Positions 14,936 to 46,999 of a stretch of 47,232 nucleotides of DNA are shown one piece after another. The first letter of the stretch is position 1. Each line of letters opens with the position of its first letter. The DNA is taken from positions 1 through 47,232 of the IMG/VR virus record IMGVR_UViG_3300032298_000435; one strand, 5' to 3'. Below the pieces are notes generated by a model that saw only the letters and a program-made list of their open reading frames with translations, made no database searches and was not told the origin of the DNA. The DNA is from a virus. The translations under genes were made by a program, and so were the position numbers.

Positions 14936-17900
14936 TTAGGCTCCTGGGAATGTAGCACCAGTTGGGAGAATGTTGAAATCAAGTACGATGAATTCAGCAG
15001 TCTTAGCTGGTTGTAGATAGATTTGACCGTATAGGATGTTTCTATCAACCAAGTCAGGAGTATTATTTGTATCATCCATTACAACTTGGAAAGCGTACAA
15101 TCCACTACGTTGTTGTACAGATTCCAAATATGGATTTACGATACTCAAGAAACGGTTTCTTGTAGCAGCCACATTTTGTTCGAATACCAAGAACTTACTG
15201 CTACTTGCAATAAACTTCTTAAGTGCGATTAACAATCTACGAACGTTTACTCTGTCAAGAGCACTTGGTTGAATTTGAAGTGTCTTTTGTCCCCATACAC
15301 AAATACCTTGACCAGGGAATGCTGCGATTGGGTTTACACGTCCTTCATACAAGGTATCACGTTCACTGTGGGTTGTTCTGTCTAGAACTTGAACTGCTTG
15401 AGCAATTCCACCACGATTTAGACCTGCGGGAGCAAACCATTCAGCAGCAGCATTGTCATTAGCAGCATAAACTGATGGCATTACTACTGATGGTGGTACA
15501 CTTATAATCTTGTTCAAGTTGGTGTCTAGAATCTTAACCCAAGGATAATATGTAGCAACATAACTGCTATCGATTGTAGATACATCATTTACTGCTGCAT
15601 CAATCAATCCTACAGTTTGGTTACTTGATGGAAACACTACGTTATCCATAATGTAGAATGTATCACCACGAGCTTCACACATATCCGTTACCAATTGGGT
15701 AACATAACTGTGTTGTTCGTGGAAAACACCAGGTGTTACAATCAAGTTGATGTCAAATTCATCTGCATTTCCAAGAGCACCTACACATTGTTTGTAAGCG
15801 ATTGAACCTGCACTATTGATATTTGTACAATTTAAACCTTGTGTATTACCTGCGATAATATTACTTCCAACATTAATTGGAATTGCAGGTGATTGACCAT
15901 CAAATCCACCTTGGAAACCTACTACGAACTTACGCATCTTGACATATGTAGCTTCGTTAGCTGCATCATATGTTGAAGGAATACTACCGCTCAATGAAGC
16001 AGCAAGTAGTGAACCAGTTCCAACATTAGAACTTATTGATTCCAAATCAAATGCGATATTGTGTCCTACAGTAGCACCAAATGGTAGAGGATAAAAATAT
16101 TCTTCTGTATCATATTTTACACCTGCATTTGTTGAACTTGTTGGGTATAAAGAAGTCAATTCAGAATCAGCACCAAGTGGAATATCACTGATTACTGTAC
16201 CAGATGCGTATTTACCAGGAGCTAATCCATAAATACTTGCTTTACTATATTGTACTACTGGAATATAATTTCCAATTGTACCTCCTAGTGGAGTTACATA
16301 TGCTTCGTTACCATAAGGAACAGCAGATACTGGATATGGTACTGTATTCATTTCAATTCTTACATACTTACTCAAGTTTGTATAAGTACCAAATTCAATG
16401 ATTTTACCAGCATAAGTAATGAAGTTGTATCTATCACCAATTCTACGAGCTACGAAGTTTGAAGAATTAGGATCTAGACTCAAGTTTTGGAAGATTTCCA
16501 AATACTTTGGTTTCTTATCAGTATCACTATAAGATCTTACAGCAAGTGTAAATGATCCCCAATCACTTCCTGCAACAGTACTAGATAATTTAACATTACT
16601 AATTTCAATCTTGTATTGTTTATTTGTGATTGTACCATCACTCACAGTGTGTACTTTAAACAATTGATACTTGGTTGTAGAACCACCTGTATTAGATGTT
16701 CCACTCCAAGGAGCAATTCCTTGTGAAAGAATCCAAGGTGTTGCTGCACTTGTTAATCCGTATTGAGAATCACCTGCGTTTAAGTTTGTTGAATATTGAT
16801 CGGTAAACTTTAATGTTTCACCTGTTGAGAATGAACCAGATGAAGGTATTCCTGCGTATATTTTCCATCCTGGGTTTCCACTATTTAATTCATCATTTAC
16901 TTTTTGAATTGAATCTTCGAATGTATTATATAAATAAGCTGCTTCAATCTTAGTACCGGAAACTTGATCATTTTGATTACCAACGGTTGGATCATTTCCA
17001 AATACATTTGTAATATAATTTGAATCAGCAGGATTCAATGAGAAGTCATAGTAACCAATTAATGAACCATTTTGTGATAAAGTCAATTGGAAATCACTCA
17101 ATGATGTTGGATTTTGAGATCCACTATAATTTCCAGATGTTGCGGTTTTTTGATTCAATACAGAACCACTGAAACCAGGAGCATTAAAACTACTATCCAA
17201 TGTACCATATTGAGTATTTGATAATACAGCAAGAACTCTTGGATAATAAGATACTGCGGTTGGATTACATGGATCGGCTGGTGCAGACCATTGTGGTGTA
17301 AATGTTCCTGTAATTTTACCAAATGAACCACTGATTACACCCTTAAGATATACTTGTGTTCCACAACCAGTTGAAGATCTTAGAGCAAATATACTACCAC
17401 TTACGAGTGTAATATTTGTACCAACAAGATTTCCATCTGAATTGGTAATTGTTACACTATTTGCAAGTGAAGCACTAAAATTTGAAGTGGTTGATGTAGA
17501 TTCTGCAATTGATTGTAATAATTTAGCATCATTTGTATAAGATGTATTTCCTTGATAAGATGATGTTACATATACAGTTGCGAATGTTAACGCACCTACA
17601 GTAAAACTATAAGTTTGACCACTGTTATATAAACTGCCATTTGCAGAATTTACATCTAATGTAGTGTTATCACCAGCGGTTGAATTAAATTTTGCGGTGA
17701 ATGTAGCACCAGATACAAATGATAGTGATCCACTTGTGCTTGCTGATGCATAAGTAAATGTACTGGAAATATTGTCACTATCATATAGTACATATGAAGA
17801 TCCACTATTTAAGGCACCAGCAGAACCGCTTCTGGCCCAAGTACCTGGTTGTGCCCAGATTACGAATGGGTTGATTTGTCTATATCCTGTCAAAGCACCG

Positions 17901-18181
17901 ACACGACATACGGTTACAAATCCTTTTTCCTTAAGATATTCTTTTGCGGTGTATGGTCCATAATAAACACCATCAGCTACACCGAACTTTTCTTCAAGAT
18001 CGGCTGTGTTGGTGATTAATGTTGGTGCGAATCCAGGACCTTTTGGAAACGGAGCAAGTATTACTGCTCCGATTTCGGCAACACCTTGTGCTACTCCGCT
18101 TAGGTCGTTTTCTCTTGTAAATACTCCTGGGCTGACTATACGGTCAACAGGACTAAATTTTCCTCCTTCAGTTATTGGCAT
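14936..18181 (-). CDS. 18: Tail sheath protein (T4 gp18-like), enlarged
   Basis: This is the contractile sheath subunit that drives the tail tube into the host. The N-terminus has the typical SPGVFTRENDLSG near 17-29 and a FGVADGVYYGPYTAKEYL segment near 66-83. The C-terminus has GVFHEQHSYVTQLV, WFAPAGLNRGGIAQAVQ, NPIAAFPGQGICVWGQKTL and RVNVRRLLIALKKFI, the conserved core that forms the inner tube-facing domain. At 1081 residues it is far longer than T4 gp18 (659). The extra sequence is a Ser/Thr/Gly/Asn-rich middle at roughly 100-700, probably surface domains. A GAAAGGAA Shine-Dalgarno sequence at 18190-18197 fixes the start. A tail tube gene (gp19), which follows in T4, is not present here. 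Confidence 0.95.
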   Translation of the reverse strand: MPITEGGKFSPVDRIVSPGVFTRENDLSGVAQGVAEIGAVILAPFPKGPGFAPTLITNTADLEEKFGVADGVYYGPYTAKEYLKEKGFVTVCRVGALTGYRQINPFVIWAQPGTWARSGSAGALNSGSSYVLYDSDNISSTFTYASASTSGSLSFVSGATFTAKFNSTAGDNTTLDVNSANGSLYNSGQTYSFTVGALTFATVYVTSSYQGNTSYTNDAKLLQSIAESTSTTSNFSASLANSVTITNSDGNLVGTNITLVSGSIFALRSSTGCGTQVYLKGVISGSFGKITGTFTPQWSAPADPCNPTAVSYYPRVLAVLSNTQYGTLDSSFNAPGFSGSVLNQKTATSGNYSGSQNPTSLSDFQLTLSQNGSLIGYYDFSLNPADSNYITNVFGNDPTVGNQNDQVSGTKIEAAYLYNTFEDSIQKVNDELNSGNPGWKIYAGIPSSGSFSTGETLKFTDQYSTNLNAGDSQYGLTSAATPWILSQGIAPWSGTSNTGGSTTKYQLFKVHTVSDGTITNKQYKIEISNVKLSSTVAGSDWGSFTLAVRSYSDTDKKPKYLEIFQNLSLDPNSSNFVARRIGDRYNFITYAGKIIEFGTYTNLSKYVRIEMNTVPYPVSAVPYGNEAYVTPLGGTIGNYIPVVQYSKASIYGLAPGKYASGTVISDIPLGADSELTSLYPTSSTNAGVKYDTEEYFYPLPFGATVGHNIAFDLESISSNVGTGSLLAASLSGSIPSTYDAANEATYVKMRKFVVGFQGGFDGQSPAIPINVGSNIIAGNTQGLNCTNINSAGSIAYKQCVGALGNADEFDINLIVTPGVFHEQHSYVTQLVTDMCEARGDTFYIMDNVVFPSSNQTVGLIDAAVNDVSTIDSSYVATYYPWVKILDTNLNKIISVPPSVVMPSVYAANDNAAAEWFAPAGLNRGGIAQAVQVLDRTTHSERDTLYEGRVNPIAAFPGQGICVWGQKTLQIQPSALDRVNVRRLLIALKKFIASSSKFLVFEQNVAATRNRFLSIVNPYLESVQQRSGLYAFQVVMDDTNNTPDLVDRNILYGQIYLQPAKTAEFIVLDFNILPTGATFPGA

Positions 18182-21369: not shown

Positions 21370-24300
21370 TTATACATAATTAACTTTAGAGAACCCGTTT
21401 TCTTTCTTAATTTCAAGTCTATTGTCAACCATATCCCTCATACTATCCAAATGACTAATAATCCATACGAAATCAAAATTAGTCTTTAAGAACGCAAATA
21501 AAGCACCCATAGACGATAAATTATCTGCATCTGCACATCCAAATCCTTCATCTATAGCTATAAAGTTGGGTCTTGGTAGATTACTAATATTAATTAATGC
21601 GACTCTCATAGCCAATGAACTAACAAATCGTTCCATACCACTAGCCAATTCCAATGGCCAGCGTTTATCTTCATAATTAATATGTGTAGTTACATTTTTA
21701 CCATCTGTCTGTAAGGTTACCGTAAATTCTACTATTTGGTTTAATATGTTATTTACTTCCTTTTCAATTGTTGGTAACGCCTTACTAATCAATTCATATG
21801 GAATACCATCTCTGGATATTGCATTTGTATACAATTGATATGCTTCATATTCAACTTCAAGTACTTTAACATCTTCAATTGATTTTTGAATAGTCTTTCT
21901 TTGTTCTTCAAATCCAGAAATTTTTGTATTATAATTAATAATGTTGTTATTTACATTCTTAATTTCTATATCAATAGTTTTGATATTGGATTTAATTGAA
22001 TCAATTGTATCTTTAACAGTTTTGTTAGATTCAATTGCATCTTTATTATTATAATATTCTTCAATTTGACTTTCAACATTAATGAGAGAGTTCTGGTCAG
22101 AACTAATCTTATTTGATATCTTTAGAATTTCAGTATTTAATTTGTTAATTTTAATCTGTGTTTCAACATATAATTTATGAACATCATTATACTTTTTCCA
22201 ATGATCCTTTATATAAGACACTTCATTAATTTTGTTTTTAATATTATTATATTCACTAACAAGACTTTGAGCTTCAACTTTATCTAATTCCAATTCTTCT
22301 CTTGTTTTAATTGCATCTTTAACGAACACATTTGTTGTACAAAAATTACAATTTGGATCATACTTATGTTCTTCTAACTTCTTTAATTTCTGTAGTTTAG
22401 ATGTAACAACAATCTTTTTCTTTTCAATAAGATGTTCTTTTTGACTAAATGATGATTCCAGTTCTTTGAACAATTCATACTTAGTTGTAATATCATCGTT
22501 TTCATAGTTCTTTATAATTTCATCATATTCTTTGTATGTTGATTCAATAGATGATAATTGAGATTTATATGAATTTAAACTGGAAGATTGTGTTGATATA
22601 GAATTTTCCAATGAAATCTTTTTTGATTCAATAGAAACAATATCAATGATATTACTATTAATATTAATAAGTTTTTTGGTTTCGTCTAAAAGACATTCAT
22701 TTTCAGAATCCCGATTGTTAGATAGTTTTTCTAAATTAGTATTTTCATTTTTTAACGAACCCGAAAAGTTTTCTATATCCGAATTTAAATTCAATAAATT
22801 CTGGGTATAATCATTATTCTTGAAATTCTTTAATAATGAATTAATTTCTTTAGTCTTATCAGCCGCATCGTTATACAAACTATCAAATATAGTTAGTCCC
22901 ATAAATTGAGCCAACAAATCTTTTCTTTCTGTTTGTCCCATATCTACAAATGATCCAACCTTATTGTTTTGAATACTCAAGACAGTTAAAATAAAATCGT
23001 CATATGTACCTACATAATCACGAATAATATCATTGGTACTTCTACGAGCTTCACCATTAAGTTCTACAACTTTACCACCTTCTTCTTTCCAGAACTTTAC
23101 ATCTACTTTGACATTGCCTTTTTTATCCGCATGTCCTTTTCTTTCAATGAAGAAATCTACACCATTAACTTCAAAGTTAAACTTACAACGGAATGTCACC
23201 TTTTGCGTATTAAGAATGTGAGATGCTTTGAATGCTCTATCACATTTATCAAAAATACAAAAAGATAATGCAGACAATACACTTGATTTACCCGCAGCAT
23301 TATTAGCAAATAATCCAACTACATTATGCATCTTAGTAAAGTCAATAACATTGTCTTCACCATAACTAAACATATTGTCAAATTCAAATTTCTTAGGTTT
23401 CCATCGAATATTTCTAACGATAGATTCTTTTTCTAAAGAAACATTTAAATCTTTGTTTATTTTATAAATCTTTTCAAGTGTATCTTTTGTTGGATTTAAA
23501 TTCTGGTTACTAAGATAGTCTGTTATCAACTTATTTTGATAATCAACATCAGACACATCGGCTAAATTAAAATTATTATTATCAATAATATTACTTGAAG
23601 ATGTATTTAATGAATCTACACGAACATATGTCACTTCCATTACCTCTGATTTTTCTCGGATAGATGACAATACAGATTTAACTTCAGTTGCAACGCTTTC
23701 AAAACACTTTAATCTAAGTCTTGCCTTTTTAGGCATATTAGAAATATCAGTAATTAAATTACCTTTATTGATTTCCGCAGTATAAAATCCATAATCATTT
23801 GGAATTTCAAAGTGTTTAAATACTTTGGTCTTTAAATCCCAAAATACAAATCCGTGACCTTTAAGATCTTCGCCATGATTCTGTTGGATCAGTGAACCAC
23901 AATAAACAATTATTGGATCAGATTGACTTAGAACTTGATGTCTGTGAATATCTCCCAACAATACAATATCGTGTCCGTCAAAGATTTCGTTTGTAATAGT
24001 TCTACTCGCAACTTTATATCCTACATCAGTAATTGCATTGTTTACTGGACCGTGGAATAAAGCAATTTTATAACGGGTTTCATTTAAATAAATCTTTGGA
24101 ATGTCTTTTACTTTAATATATTTATCCGGTTCATCAAATACACTATAGTGATTAAACAAAATATCGCCCAAGATATAAAGTCCAGAATCCTTTAGATAAA
24201 ATAAATTTTTATGATTAATCGCATCAACAATTGGACTCAAACTATCTAATCTGTTTTTATTGGCCAAAGTAGCATCGTGATTACCTGAAATCAATATCGT

Positions 24301-24555
24301 TGGTCTTCTATCTGCTAGATTTTGTAAAAATTCAGATGTAATCTTTACACATTCAGGTGAAAGATCGCTCTTTGAATGCAAGACATCTCCTAATACGGTA
24401 ACTACGGTTTCCGTAGGTGTCTTTTCTATTGCTTTATACAATCTTTCAAATACTTGATTGTATTCATCGTGTCTCTTTGTAAGACGCAAATGAATATCCG
24501 CAATGTGAAATACATTCTTGAATTCTTTTATATCTGATTTAAGATATTTTGCCAT
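21370..24555 (-). CDS. Single-chain recombination nuclease: gp47 (Mre11/SbcD) fused to gp46 (Rad50/SbcC)
   Basis: Encodes 1061 residues. The N-terminal half is a calcineurin-like phosphoesterase: DIH at 20-22, GD at 56-57, GNHD at 91-94, FHGP with His168, and GDIHRHQ at 201-207. From about residue 385 an ABC/SMC ATPase follows: Walker A GLFANNAAGKSS at 414-425, long coiled coils with a zinc-hook CNFC at 736-739, signature LASGMER at 970-976, and Walker B with Asp1002/Glu1003 in AIDEGFG. In T4 these are two adjacent genes, 47 and 46, which make the exonuclease that resects DNA ends for recombination-dependent replication and degrades host DNA. All catalytic residues of both halves are visible. 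The gene begins one base after the primase stop. Confidence 0.93.
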   Translation of the reverse strand: MAKYLKSDIKEFKNVFHIADIHLRLTKRHDEYNQVFERLYKAIEKTPTETVVTVLGDVLHSKSDLSPECVKITSEFLQNLADRRPTILISGNHDATLANKNRLDSLSPIVDAINHKNLFYLKDSGLYILGDILFNHYSVFDEPDKYIKVKDIPKIYLNETRYKIALFHGPVNNAITDVGYKVASRTITNEIFDGHDIVLLGDIHRHQVLSQSDPIIVYCGSLIQQNHGEDLKGHGFVFWDLKTKVFKHFEIPNDYGFYTAEINKGNLITDISNMPKKARLRLKCFESVATEVKSVLSSIREKSEVMEVTYVRVDSLNTSSSNIIDNNNFNLADVSDVDYQNKLITDYLSNQNLNPTKDTLEKIYKINKDLNVSLEKESIVRNIRWKPKKFEFDNMFSYGEDNVIDFTKMHNVVGLFANNAAGKSSVLSALSFCIFDKCDRAFKASHILNTQKVTFRCKFNFEVNGVDFFIERKGHADKKGNVKVDVKFWKEEGGKVVELNGEARRSTNDIIRDYVGTYDDFILTVLSIQNNKVGSFVDMGQTERKDLLAQFMGLTIFDSLYNDAADKTKEINSLLKNFKNNDYTQNLLNLNSDIENFSGSLKNENTNLEKLSNNRDSENECLLDETKKLININSNIIDIVSIESKKISLENSISTQSSSLNSYKSQLSSIESTYKEYDEIIKNYENDDITTKYELFKELESSFSQKEHLIEKKKIVVTSKLQKLKKLEEHKYDPNCNFCTTNVFVKDAIKTREELELDKVEAQSLVSEYNNIKNKINEVSYIKDHWKKYNDVHKLYVETQIKINKLNTEILKISNKISSDQNSLINVESQIEEYYNNKDAIESNKTVKDTIDSIKSNIKTIDIEIKNVNNNIINYNTKISGFEEQRKTIQKSIEDVKVLEVEYEAYQLYTNAISRDGIPYELISKALPTIEKEVNNILNQIVEFTVTLQTDGKNVTTHINYEDKRWPLELASGMERFVSSLAMRVALINISNLPRPNFIAIDEGFGCADADNLSSMGALFAFLKTNFDFVWIISHLDSMRDMVDNRLEIKKENGFSKVNYV

Positions 24556-24556
24556 A

Positions 24557-25510
24557 TTATATTCTTAGTTTTAACTTAAACAACTTTTCAAAGTCCATCG
24601 TATCACAACTATCTATCATTTGCCAAGTTTTTTCAAAACCTATTACACTTGGATCTTTACCGTCCAATATTATCAATTTAGTCGGAATACTATTCTTGAT
24701 TAGAAACTCACAGATTTTGATGGAATCTTTTATCGCATCATTGTCTAATAAAATATGTACCATCGGAACATCGTGTTCTAATAATTTTAATTTTAATTGT
24801 TTGCTTAATGTCTTTCCAAACAATGGTATACAATTATTTTTAACTGCAATAGCATCAAATGGTCCTTCAACCAATGTTATAGGTTGTTCAAAATTAATGA
24901 ATAATTCAAACCCAATAATATTCTTTGATGCGGAACAACTCACATATTTCAATCCTTTGGTGTCAAAAAAACTTCTGGCAGTATAAAAATTCAATGTACC
25001 ATTACTATCATATGATGGTATTACCACTCTATTTTTTAAATCGCCTTCAGTACAATATCCAATATTATATCTTATAATATCATTCTTAGTTATATTTCTG
25101 GACTTGAGATACTTTAATGCGTGTTTATATTCCAGTTCATTTATCGGTTCACTAATAGGTTTATATTCTTTTGGTAGTTTTACCAGTTTTATTTCTTCTG
25201 GTTTATCTTCAAAAGAAATAGAAAATTCATCAATAGATTTTTTATAAAACGATTTCTGGCTTAATCCAATTGATGTATAATATTCTGCGGGAGCATTTAA
25301 TTTCTTAAATAAAGACTTGAAACTTGTTCCACTAAATCCGCATACCCAACAATTATATTTGCCTGTATATAAATTAATTTCTAGTTTTCTTTTATAGTGT
25401 TTGCAAGATGGACAATGATAAACCGCATCAGTTCCTTTACGAATCTTAGGAACTTGATGTAACAGTTTATTTAAAACAGATATTATTGCCTCTTGATATA
25501 ACAACATCAA
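24557..25510 (-). CDS. 61: DNA primase (DnaG type, T4 gp61-like)
   Basis: Makes RNA primers for lagging-strand synthesis, normally with a gp41-like helicase that is not in this window. The 317 residues have a zinc-binding N-terminus with Cys33, Cys36, Cys54 and Cys57 (CPSC and CWVC), then a KYLKSRNITKNDIIRYNIGY segment, followed by the TOPRIM domain with Glu in TLVEGPFDAIA near 215 and the D-x-D of HILLDNDA near 250. Length is close to T4 gp61 (342). The start may be the first or second Met (MML). It sits between the DUF2786-like gene and the gp47/46 fusion, an all nucleic-acid cluster. Confidence 0.92.
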   Translation of the reverse strand: MMLLYQEAIISVLNKLLHQVPKIRKGTDAVYHCPSCKHYKRKLEINLYTGKYNCWVCGFSGTSFKSLFKKLNAPAEYYTSIGLSQKSFYKKSIDEFSISFEDKPEEIKLVKLPKEYKPISEPINELEYKHALKYLKSRNITKNDIIRYNIGYCTEGDLKNRVVIPSYDSNGTLNFYTARSFFDTKGLKYVSCSASKNIIGFELFINFEQPITLVEGPFDAIAVKNNCIPLFGKTLSKQLKLKLLEHDVPMVHILLDNDAIKDSIKICEFLIKNSIPTKLIILDGKDPSVIGFEKTWQMIDSCDTMDFEKLFKLKLRI

Positions 25511-25531: not shown

Positions 25532-26194
25532 TTATTCAATCAACTTTTTATTTGGGTCATTTTTTACCCACGGTTTTTTATCCAATGCAACTGCAATTTT
25601 CATCAACTTAATTGGATCAATTGGTTTTTCTTCTTGAACATCTTCAGAAAGATCTTCGGAATTTTCTTTTTCATCTGATGTTTTATCGTCATTTCCTTCG
25701 GTTTTTTGTTCCGTTTCTTCTTCTTTAACATCTTCGGGTGGAGTAGGTGGAACATCTTGTTGAATATTTTCTTGTGTATATGTTTGATGTTTTGGAATGT
25801 AACCTATTACATTTCTTGCAATTATTCCCTGCATTAAATATCTTTTATAATCATTATACATGTCTCTATAATATTCAAATGCGTTGTTAATATTTTCATA
25901 TTCACATAATTTTATACGAATGCAAATACAATTATTTTTTTCTTTCCACTTTAATCCGGGAACATCCATTATCATACAACAAATATTGATGAGCAATTCT
26001 CTCTCATTTTTATCGTTTATAACGATATAATAATCTTTGGATTCTTCTGATATAGATATTTCTTCTGGGGATATATTATATTTTTCACATATCCGTTCTA
26101 ACTTTTCTTTAGCCGCATTTCTTTCACCGCCTTTACCTTTTTCGGCTAATGCTTTTATCTTTTTTGCTAACTCTATTATTTTGTTGCGGTTCAT
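25532..26194 (-). CDS. DUF2786-like protein with long acidic linker
   Basis: Encodes 220 residues. Residues 1-45 (IIELAKKIKALAEKGKGGE, then AAKEKLERICEKYNIS) match the helical pattern of DUF2786, a short domain of unknown function found in many phage proteins. Residues 50-110 form a small alpha/beta region. From about 135 to 190 it is a Glu/Asp/Pro/Lys-rich disordered linker, and it ends with a short basic tail. The start overlaps the RuvC-like gene by 62 bases in another frame. A later start would remove the conserved first helix, so the overlap is probably real. Function unknown; its neighbours suggest a DNA-related role. Confidence 0.75.
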   Translation of the reverse strand: MNRNKIIELAKKIKALAEKGKGGERNAAKEKLERICEKYNISPEEISISEESKDYYIVINDKNERELLINICCMIMDVPGLKWKEKNNCICIRIKLCEYENINNAFEYYRDMYNDYKRYLMQGIIARNVIGYIPKHQTYTQENIQQDVPPTPPEDVKEEETEQKTEGNDDKTSDEKENSEDLSEDVQEEKPIDPIKLMKIAVALDKKPWVKNDPNKKLIE

Positions 26195-26699
26195 CTTTGT
26201 ATAATGAGCAAACTATACCATCATACATATCACCGTTTCTTTCATCCCAATTACCCTTTTTGTTAAGAACTGTAAATTTAACTACATCTGGACAAAGTGA
26301 TTCTAGTTCTGATTTTACAAATTGTTTTGATTTAACACCTTTAATTCTACACTTACCAAATAACTGTTTACGCATAGTGTTAACAGATAACAGATTTACC
26401 TTGACTTTAAAGTGTTCTTCAATAATATATGAAAATACGGCATTATGCCTAGCTAATGTAATTATAACTTGTTGTGATGTGAATCCACCAGCAAATCCAC
26501 TAAGAGCAGCTTCTAAATTAATGACTGTGACATCTTTAATTAATGGATTCTTTTCCAATTCAGATATAACAAAATAAGTTTTTTCTTTTGTTATTTCAAA
26601 CTTTTTGGTATCAATATAACCGGCATCCAAGACTTTACCGTCTTTACTAAATGCCCAACCTGTAACTGATGTAGATGAATCTAAACCTAATATAACCAT
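26133..26699 (-). CDS. RuvC-like Holliday junction resolvase / RNase H-fold nuclease
   Basis: Encodes 188 residues. It begins VILGLDSSTSVTGWAF with the first catalytic Asp at position 7. The second acidic residue is Glu63 in VINLEAAL, and a late acidic pair lies in NGDMYDGIVCSLY near 155-160. This order (D, E, then D-x-x-D near the end) is that of RuvC-type resolvases. T4 itself uses the unrelated endonuclease VII to trim branched DNA before packaging, so this protein probably fills that job here. The C-terminal 20 residues are basic and are encoded by sequence shared with the next gene. It could also be a nuclease with another branched-DNA substrate. Confidence 0.85.
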   Translation of the reverse strand: MVILGLDSSTSVTGWAFSKDGKVLDAGYIDTKKFEITKEKTYFVISELEKNPLIKDVTVINLEAALSGFAGGFTSQQVIITLARHNAVFSYIIEEHFKVKVNLLSVNTMRKQLFGKCRIKGVKSKQFVKSELESLCPDVVKFTVLNKKGNWDERNGDMYDGIVCSLYKDEPQQNNRVSKKDKSISRKR

Positions 26700-27147: not shown

Positions 27148-29463
27148 TTAGATATCCCATTTTACCAAAATATTTAGCGGTAATTCACCACTATTTTTAA
27201 TTGGCATACCCAATTTAGCCACAGCAACCAAATCACCACCACTATAAAGTCCTACAGTTGTTATATATGGTGCCAAATAAGAACCAGTTGGGTCAATTGA
27301 AGAACTATAATTAAATCCAAAGAATTCTTGTTTTATAGACTTACCACCAAATTTACCCGTCTTTTGTTCAATATAACTTATAATTTGTTGTAAAGTTTTT
27401 CTGGAAGACTTTGGTTCTACATACTTGAATAATTCGGTTTGATTCAAATTATTATTAAAATACTTCCATAGTATGTACATATCATTCAAATTAACTTTAT
27501 TATTACCATCAATATCAAAGTTTTTATAATTTGATGTTAAATTTGAATTGTAATTGGATGTATAACTTGAAGAAATGTTATAATTTGCAGAATAAAGATT
27601 AAATAATGATTGTTCATCATTTGTAAATGTCATATAATCCCACCAATTATATGATGTATTGATTTGATAATTAATATATTTTAAAATCAAATCTAAGTCG
27701 GTAAAATCAAAAGATTTATTATTATCAATATCAAATTCAAATGTATTTGGAATTAATGATGTAGGATTTGTACTATAATTAAATTCTCCCGATTCAATTC
27801 TACATAATACTTGTTTTTCATATATTTTAACATTGCTCTTATATTCAATATTATATTGAGATTGTAATGGATTGGAACGATCTTTTAATAAATTATCAAA
27901 AATAGAACCACTATTTGATAATATAATCTTACCGTCTCTATAAAATACATTTCCTATATGATAATCATTAACAATATCATTGAAATTGTATATATATGAA
28001 TAACCATTGATGGTATCATATATTGAAGATGTCATTTCACTTGGATTTACCAAGAATAATGGAGAACCAATTGACACTATATTATCTGTAATTGCAGAAC
28101 TATATCCAAATGTTGTATAAGGATAACCATATTGTTTCTTTTTAGTTACTACAGATTTTATTTCCCATAGTGATGTAGATAGTGAAGATGTATAGTAAAC
28201 AAATTGTCCTAATGTATCAATTACACTGTCATTTGGGTTACAATCAAATCTTTTATTAATTGTATTTTTAATATAACTGGAACTAAATTGACTAATATCT
28301 TTTGTACTTGTAGCAATCGCATTACCATTATAAATGTCAACAGAATATCCTAAATTATTTGATTCTAAAATATTTTCATTTCCAAATGATTTTTCTAATA
28401 AAAACCAATCAGTTGCATCCGAACATTTTTTCCAAAAATAAACTGCTCCTCTATTTCTTAAAATTGTAGAACCACTCCATTCATAGTAGTACATATCATT
28501 AGGTGATCCTACTATAAGTGTATCTCCATAGATTGATACAGAATTACCATAGTTACTGCCACTTGGTTGAATTCCTGGAAAATAAGGTTTTGTATTAATG
28601 AAATTTAACGAACCCGTAATATTTCTATTTTGATCCAATATATCATTTTCTACCCATTGATTTGTAGATGTATTTAATTCGTATACATAAACCGCACTTC
28701 CTGTTGACTTATTACCAACTACTATTCTATTTGATCCACTCGGATCAATCTTAACCACACTACCATAATAATAATCCGCAGGTAATCCACCAGGAGATAA
28801 TGTTTGATAATGATTCCAAACACCTAGTGATTGTGTGTATATATAAGCACAATTATTTTTACTAGAACCTACTACTAGTTTATTTTGATAAATTGAAACA
28901 GATTCACCAAATGTAGAATATTCCAAATTATCAAATGAATTTGTAATACTATATTTTGGATAATAAACCGTTCCAGAAACATAACTACTTGAATAATCAG
29001 ATAAATCATATATATCAACACAAGAACCTGTGTTAACTATAGAACCGTTAATCAATGAAAATCTATAATATGGATTTCCAATTACTACTACAGATCCAGA
29101 TACATCTACAGATACACCATAAGAATCATCATAAATAACAGGATTCCATCCGCCCAAATCAATTTCTATGTTCAATCCTAAAACAGGAACAGATGATGTA
29201 TCCGCATTAATATATGTAATATCTACACTACTAGTATCAGCCGACAAATACCCACCAAAATCATCCGGATTTATGTATTTATAAAATATAAAATTAGGAT
29301 TATATAAATCAGTATTTTTAGAATATTTAAATATTTCAACCGATCCTTTATTGTTTAATACAAACGAGCCAGATAAAAAAGATGTAGGATTTCCAACTGC
29401 TACATAATCTCCGTCAGCAGCAATTGAATATCCTGTTTTTAATTTATAAATTGGATCGGTCAT
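27148..29463 (-). CDS. FG-GAP-type beta-propeller virion protein with two dockerin-like calcium loops
   Basis: Encodes 771 residues. Seven repeats of the pattern G-x-S-[VI]-x(5-8)-[LIV]-[VA]-[VI]-G-[NS]-P run through the first 480 or so residues (for example GYSIAADGDYVAVGNP, GNSVSIYGDTLIVGSP and GYSSAITDNIVSIGSP), as in FG-GAP or integrin-like seven-bladed propellers. Two EF-hand/dockerin-like loops follow: DIDNNKSFDFTDLDLILKYI near 582 and DIDGNNKVNLNDMYILWKYF near 648. The last 40 residues (ITTVGLYSGGDLVAVAKL) match the end of the 368-residue protein at 30096-31202. The gene overlaps its upstream neighbour by four bases. A receptor-binding or baseplate-peripheral role is likely, but is inferred from architecture. 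Confidence 0.8.
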   Translation of the reverse strand: MTDPIYKLKTGYSIAADGDYVAVGNPTSFLSGSFVLNNKGSVEIFKYSKNTDLYNPNFIFYKYINPDDFGGYLSADTSSVDITYINADTSSVPVLGLNIEIDLGGWNPVIYDDSYGVSVDVSGSVVVIGNPYYRFSLINGSIVNTGSCVDIYDLSDYSSSYVSGTVYYPKYSITNSFDNLEYSTFGESVSIYQNKLVVGSSKNNCAYIYTQSLGVWNHYQTLSPGGLPADYYYGSVVKIDPSGSNRIVVGNKSTGSAVYVYELNTSTNQWVENDILDQNRNITGSLNFINTKPYFPGIQPSGSNYGNSVSIYGDTLIVGSPNDMYYYEWSGSTILRNRGAVYFWKKCSDATDWFLLEKSFGNENILESNNLGYSVDIYNGNAIATSTKDISQFSSSYIKNTINKRFDCNPNDSVIDTLGQFVYYTSSLSTSLWEIKSVVTKKKQYGYPYTTFGYSSAITDNIVSIGSPLFLVNPSEMTSSIYDTINGYSYIYNFNDIVNDYHIGNVFYRDGKIILSNSGSIFDNLLKDRSNPLQSQYNIEYKSNVKIYEKQVLCRIESGEFNYSTNPTSLIPNTFEFDIDNNKSFDFTDLDLILKYINYQINTSYNWWDYMTFTNDEQSLFNLYSANYNISSSYTSNYNSNLTSNYKNFDIDGNNKVNLNDMYILWKYFNNNLNQTELFKYVEPKSSRKTLQQIISYIEQKTGKFGGKSIKQEFFGFNYSSSIDPTGSYLAPYITTVGLYSGGDLVAVAKLGMPIKNSGELPLNILVKWDI

Positions 29464-46516: not shown

Positions 46517-46999
46517 TTACTTAATCGTTACTTTTCTTACGTCTGGGACTGCATGTTTTACCTTATTTAAAGTAATTAAAAGAATACCGTTTTCAAATGT
46601 AGCAGATACAGTATCTTTTTCAATATTATCTCCTAAAGTAAATGATCTTCGGAAACTAGAACGTTTTAATTCTCTTCTGATATATTTTCCATTTTGGGTA
46701 TCTGTTACATTTTTACTTTTACCGCCACTTACAGTAAGTACATTTTGTTCCACTTCAACATTTACATCTTGTTTACTTAAACCTGGAACTTCAGCTTCTA
46801 TAACTACTGTATCATTGTAATCAATAACATCTACTCTTGGATATGAACCTTTTTCAAAAAAGTCTACACCAAATTCTTGGCTAAAATTAGGGGAATTTGC
46901 TTTGAAAAATTCATCAAAAATTTGATCAAATGGAGTTAAAAACTCATCACGATGAATTGTACGAAATAACGGATTATTTTGATATTTTACTACTGACAT
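46517..46999 (-). CDS. Small heat shock protein Hsp20
   Basis: ATP-independent holdase chaperone that binds unfolding proteins; Hsp20 genes are common in marine T4-like phages. The 160 residues have an N-terminal arm with FDQIFDEFFKANSP, then the alpha-crystallin domain: YPRVDVIDYNDTVVIEAEVP near 53-72, VNVEVEQNVLTVSGG near 78-92, RSSFRRSFTLGDNI near 113-126, and the closing ATFENGILLITLNK near 133-146 (the A-x-x-x-N-G-x-L motif). The C-terminal VRKVTIK provides an I-x-I/V-like anchor. It has its own promoter-like motif, a Shine-Dalgarno sequence and a terminator, so it is a separate transcription unit. Confidence 0.95.
   Translation of the reverse strand: MSVVKYQNNPLFRTIHRDEFLTPFDQIFDEFFKANSPNFSQEFGVDFFEKGSYPRVDVIDYNDTVVIEAEVPGLSKQDVNVEVEQNVLTVSGGKSKNVTDTQNGKYIRRELKRSSFRRSFTLGDNIEKDTVSATFENGILLITLNKVKHAVPDVRKVTIK

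Follow-up and report, generated by a model that had tools for sequence, protein, structure and literature searches.

A natural single-chain Mre11-Rad50 (SbcD-SbcC) fusion in a tailed phage, a further member of a known viral family with a probable role in resecting DNA ends

Does a long open reading frame (ORF) of an uncultivated virus really join an Mre11-like nuclease to a Rad50-like ATPase in one chain, and if so, what would such a chain do for the virus, how old is the join, and is it new? The window, i.e., the whole stretch of DNA that we analysed, comprises the 47,232 nucleotides of IMG/VR record IMGVR_UViG_3300032298_000435, whose terminase, portal, head protease and tail sheath genes mark it as the genome of a tailed phage. 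The original prediction for this locus was of a natural fusion with the nuclease first, in one 1061-aa chain, and both the ORF and its Pfam and PHROG matches uphold it:

21370..24555, minus strand: single-chain Mre11-Rad50 (SbcD-SbcC) fusion gene, 1061 aa, identified by its ORF, Pfam and PHROG matches and intact relatives

The reading frame begins with ATG and runs for 1061 codons with no internal stop. Pfam Metallophos matches residues 15–205 (E 9e-12), the SbcD-like family phrog_100 matches residues 10–363 (E 3e-23) and the SbcC-like family phrog_77 matches residues 266–1060 (E 4e-47). NCBIfam models likewise match both subunits, and solved Mre11 chains match the N-terminal part, with solved Rad50/SbcC chains matching the C-terminal part.

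An assembly or sequencing artefact could in principle have joined two adjacent genes. Against this, intact copies of the gene are found in independent contigs at 99%, 98.7% and 93% identity, and its codons are under purifying selection (dN/dS ~0.07–0.13 for the gene), to either side of the join as well as over the join itself; the lowest values fall in the ATPase lobes and the nuclease core, and the helix-loop-helix and linker (aa 336–383) are still constrained where dN/dS was measurable. Looking for the same fusion in related phages, we found one ORF spanning both halves in 155 of the 170 related loci, and a break at the nuclease/ATPase join in none of the 170. The remaining 15 mostly reflect contig ends, masked bases or matches too distant to span both halves; the 170 include two distinct contigs in which the break comes downstream of the hook motif (within the coil or close to lobe II), a locus interrupted by a mobile element and two loci with only an SbcD-like ORF. 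A single coding sequence (CDS) over both halves is also annotated in Microcystis phage Mel-JY01 and in the Tenacibaculum phages. The independent intact copies and the codon constraint on and across the join thus exclude an assembly or sequencing join, to which we assign a negligible probability. Every complete close relative proved to be fused rather than split into separate genes. A search for a second, separate SbcC or SbcD gene gave none in the window, in Mel-JY01 or in 13 large relatives, apart from pieces of the same gene.

The N-terminal half was recognized as follows:

23806..24522, minus strand: Mre11/SbcD-like phosphoesterase domain, approximately aa 12–250, from Pfam, motifs and structural alignment

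This part scores Z 24–25 in structural alignment against S. aureus SbcD and T. maritima Mre11, and carries the phosphoesterase motifs D20-H22, G56-D57 (motif II, of the form GDxxH), G91-N92-H93-D94, H168 and G201-D202-I203-H204. The full motif set that had been predicted is there in the sense that every motif is present, but motif V reads GDIH (G-D202-I-H204) instead of the canonical GHIH (GHxH in T4, SPO1 and E. coli); that is, the metal ligands D, H, D, N, H, H, H are all in place except that Asp202 stands for the first motif V His. Among 131 distinct sequences of fused proteins there is no variation at the metal ligands D57, N92, H93, H168 and H204; D20 fails in just one, which has a gap there, and residue 22 is His in 103 and Gln in 27. 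H60 and D202 are found in 131 of 131. The His-to-Asp change in motif V could alter metal preference or activity, and this GDIH, together with the Gln in motif I of some relatives, is what might be expected if the nuclease half were degenerate and the protein were chiefly an ATP-driven scaffold or tether for DNA. We consider that improbable: Asp can also bind metal, the other metal-ligand positions are invariant or nearly so among the 131 sequences, and dN/dS for the nuclease domain (0.03–0.07) is among the lowest in the gene.

Residues 384–1061 form a complete Rad50/SbcC-like ATPase part, divided as is usual for a split ABC head:

22936..23406, minus strand: Rad50 ATPase lobe I, aa 384–540, with Walker A A417-x4-G422-K423-S424 and Q-loop Q529
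21841..22935, minus strand: coiled-coil arms, aa 541–905, from the predicted model and the hook motif
22339..22350, minus strand: CxxC zinc hook C736-N-F-C739, from conserved cysteines
21373..21840, minus strand: Rad50 ATPase lobe II, aa 906–1061, with signature S972-G-M-E975, Walker B I-D1002-E1003, D-loop D1009 and H-loop H1035

Walker A, Q-loop, signature, Walker B, D-loop and H-loop were all found, and structural alignment of this part gives Z 28–29 against E. coli SbcC and P. furiosus Rad50 (Z 29 to SbcC). The prediction that Walker A, zinc hook, signature and Walker B follow the nuclease in the same chain holds, and these elements are nearly invariant in the 131 sequences: K423, S424, Q529, C739, G973, D1002-E1003 and D1009 are without exception, and C736, S972, E975 and H1035 are each missing in one or two. 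Most of the family has Ala at the start of Walker A. The hook lies at residues 736–739 as predicted (C736 in 129 of 131 sequences, C739 in 131 of 131). In two distant fused relatives (L090 and L091) the main ORF has no CxxC motif, and these apparently lack a zinc hook. A short coil and a compact complex had also been proposed, which is partly right. The coil is short relative to E. coli SbcC and the longer phage fusions, but longer than those of T4 gp46 and SPO1, and with a Rad50 part of ~678 aa (T4 560, SPO1 637, Moorella phage 710, E. coli 1048) it is not especially short for a phage.

What lies between nuclease and ATPase was examined in a predicted structure of the fusion (39-row alignment, mean pLDDT 82, pTM 0.45) and in alignments:

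23620..23787, minus strand: capping-like domain, approximately aa 257–312, strand-strand-helix-strand, from the model and the SbcD/Mre11 alignment
23437..23547, minus strand: helix-loop-helix, aa 337–373 (helices 337–350 and 357–373), from the model
23407..23436, minus strand: linker between the nuclease and ATPase parts, aa 374–383, from the model and the dN/dS constraint over 336–383

The order in the model is canonical, namely Mre11 core, capping domain, helix-loop-helix and Rad50 head, the last beginning with a strand at residue 384. The core alignment with SbcD/Mre11 extends through residue 312. The helix-loop-helix is the positional equivalent of the Rad50-binding domain of Mre11, and a profile alignment also reaches the C-terminal portion of the T. 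maritima Mre11 chain 3qg5_C. Both the capping (257–312) and the putative Rad50-docking (337–373) elements are thus present in the predicted model; because the pTM of 0.45 is low, the model does not establish the placement of nuclease and ATPase relative to each other. Just 10 residues separate the end of the helix-loop-helix from the Rad50 N-terminus, and a linker of 9–12 residues has been reckoned to span the gap in the T. maritima MR complex (PMC3175470). Model and alignments therefore indicate a whole Mre11, including its usual Rad50-docking part, then about 10 residues, then a whole Rad50.

Two neighbouring genes bear on function:

24557..25510, minus strand: DnaG-like primase, 317 aa, its stop codon one base before the fusion ATG, a conserved upstream neighbour
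26133..26699, minus strand: RuvC-like Holliday junction resolvase, 188 aa, in the same-strand cluster (phrog_827, E 1e-5)

Of the 149 loci with enough upstream sequence, 135 have a primase ORF as the immediate same-strand neighbour upstream of the fusion, and the spacing in the window, the fusion starting one base past the primase stop, suggests coupled translation. In SPO1 also the primase adjoins SbcC, though there SbcD and SbcC are separate. The resolvase had no Pfam match; a similar ORF occurs in 63 of the 149 related loci. Elsewhere in the window are a tail sheath gene of unusual length (14936-18181, 1081 aa, its best sheath match, phrog_23, covering only residues 736–1078 in the C-terminal third), a gene for an Hsp20-like small heat shock protein (46517-46999; phrog_432, E 3e-24) and a gene for a 771-aa protein (27148-29463) with a Pfam FG-GAP_2 repeat match and no PHROG match.

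The role proposed for T4 gp46/47 is the resection of DNA ends that feeds recombination-dependent replication (PMC3016280; PMC3175470). Since all parts for an ATP-gated reaction are present in the fusion, in a tailed-phage genome and beside primase and RuvC-like genes, its role is most likely a similar one, ATP-gated end resection and tethering in phage recombination and replication. One could instead imagine an SMC-nuclease of Lamassu- or Wadjet-like kind that attacks the host or counters its defences, and Foldseek does list Lamassu and JetABC chains for the ATPase part. These fall below the best MR chains, however, which rank first in structural alignment; moreover, the nuclease half is Mre11-like rather than Lamassu- or Jet-type, and the primase and RuvC-like resolvase neighbours are conserved across relatives, so that we regard such an enzyme as very unlikely. 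All told, the gene product is very probably an R555-type Mre11-Rad50 (SbcCD) complex in a single chain, with which a tailed phage resects DNA ends for phage recombination-dependent replication. Two chains would most likely form an M2R2-like assembly, joined both at the Mre11 part and at the CxxC hooks. On binding ATP the Rad50 heads would close over the nuclease, hydrolysis and DNA-end binding would let the Mre11 sites cut, and the cutting would leave 3' single-stranded tails for recombination-dependent replication. The fusion may further contribute to host DNA breakdown, as T4 gp46/47 does. Residence in one chain would fix a 1:1 stoichiometry and keep the subunits together.

The fusion is common in aquatic phages, of which the one analysed here is an example. 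A profile scan of IMG/VR gave at least 591 relatives (591 among the first 600 candidates), and cultured phages with the fusion are Microcystis phage Mel-JY01, Tenacibaculum pT24 and PTm1, Sphingomonas PAU and Chryseobacterium MA9V-1; the huge-phage assemblies LR756508 and LR756501 carry it as well. A tblastn search for plasmid relatives gave no match, and a weak profile match to Deferribacter pDF308 was rejected, since it lies mainly in the coiled coil and is not the published fusion. Among plasmids, a fusion has been published for one of C. kluyveri. Two loci have insertions in the gene. On a viral contig of 303,564 bases (L116:5992-10155) a 326-aa intein, recognized by Pfam Intein_splicing (E 2.5e-9) and LAGLIDADG_1, sits directly after the motif III GNHD. 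In LR756508, a phage of 484 kb, ~0.9 kb interrupts the gene near motif V, GDIH (L080:6662-7579); the insert holds a 305-aa ORF with a TnsA-N-like nuclease domain and is probably a mobile intron or homing element, and an Rfam search of the interruption for a group I intron gave no match. Two further loci have standalone SbcD-like ORFs related to the nuclease half and lacking a fused ATPase, one with motif V GHIH (L095:5995-6828) and one with GDIH (L096:1409-2317), which may be split or partner-less relatives.

Both halves were placed on trees. In the ATPase-lobe tree, a 98/96 branch has all sampled fused proteins on one side and the T4-like, SPO1, Vibrio, Moorella and E. coli proteins on the other. 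The nuclease-half tree gives the same grouping, except for the two standalone SbcD-like ORFs, which are placed within the fused proteins or next to them; two changes are counted on this tree. On these trees, which have long branches and omit R555 as well as several of the published fusions, the grouping is consistent with a single old fusion event in the sampled phages and joint inheritance of the two halves since then. Neither half tree calls for repeated fusion among the phages sampled; in the wider family, given the long branches and the published fusions absent from the trees, fusion may have happened more than once. In a structural search of BFVD, seven of the best nine matches were proteins of giant or large algal viruses and the other two were unnamed proteins, all nine being 969–1417 aa in length and the first being from Tupanvirus (E 7e-77). 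Tupanvirus, Harvfovirus, Yasminevirus and others stand ahead of the Tenacibaculum phages in this list, which is a ranking and not a tree. Phages have been suspected, from short reads, to be the main reservoir of such fusions (PMC3175470). It is conceivable, at somewhat less than even chances in our estimate, that a single ancient fusion gave rise both to the R555 gene and to the fusions of aquatic phages, having passed between bacterial phages and eukaryotic viruses, with phages as the main reservoir.

The original prediction implied that the fusion was new, which is not supported. Natural Mre11/Rad50 fusions have in fact been known since 2011, when Yoshida, Claverie and Ogata published those of Mimivirus (R555), Bacillus phage 0305phi8-36 and aquatic viral sequences (PMC3175470). 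They reported phage primases beside the aquatic sequences, attributed the aquatic homologues to viruses that probably included phages, and noted that R555 departs from the usual motifs in having GDxxH in motif II and Asp for the motif V His (PMC3175470). The 1061-aa gene is therefore a further member of an already described viral family, and the fusion itself is no discovery. Phage ownership, only inferred in 2011 from short environmental reads, is now accompanied by full-length genes in real tailed-phage contexts (terminase, portal, tail sheath, primase), and a natural 1:1 single-chain MR enzyme of ~1060 aa is a convenient object for work on Mre11-Rad50 structure and mechanism.

Compared with known systems, the window fusion resembles the R555-type fusions in its single chain, Mre11-like then Rad50-like, in a region of the length of a capping domain and helix-loop-helix followed by a short linker, and in having abundant aquatic viral-fraction relatives with phage primases as neighbours; it also shares GDxxH and the motif V Asp with R555 itself (R555 residues taken from PMC3175470). 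R555 differs in being a 1351-aa protein with a long coil from a giant virus of amoebae, whereas ours has 1061 aa, a shorter coil and a tailed-phage genome. The protein of Microcystis phage Mel-JY01 (WWT39521.1) is similar in length (1066 aa) at 39% identity, with a primase just upstream and a small ORF between, though its annotation, 'AAA domain containing protein', covers the ATPase half only. The fusions of Tenacibaculum pT24/PTm1, Sphingomonas PAU and Chryseobacterium MA9V-1 have the same domain order in a single CDS of 1301–1326 aa, but their Rad50 part is ~200 aa longer, their motif II is GDxxE or similar, and they form a separate branch in both half trees. T4 gp47/gp46, E. coli SbcD/SbcC and archaeal Mre11/Rad50 share the domains, the motifs and probably the reaction, yet are encoded by two separate genes; those of T4 and E. 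coli further differ in their GHxH at motif V and in falling outside the fused group in both half trees.
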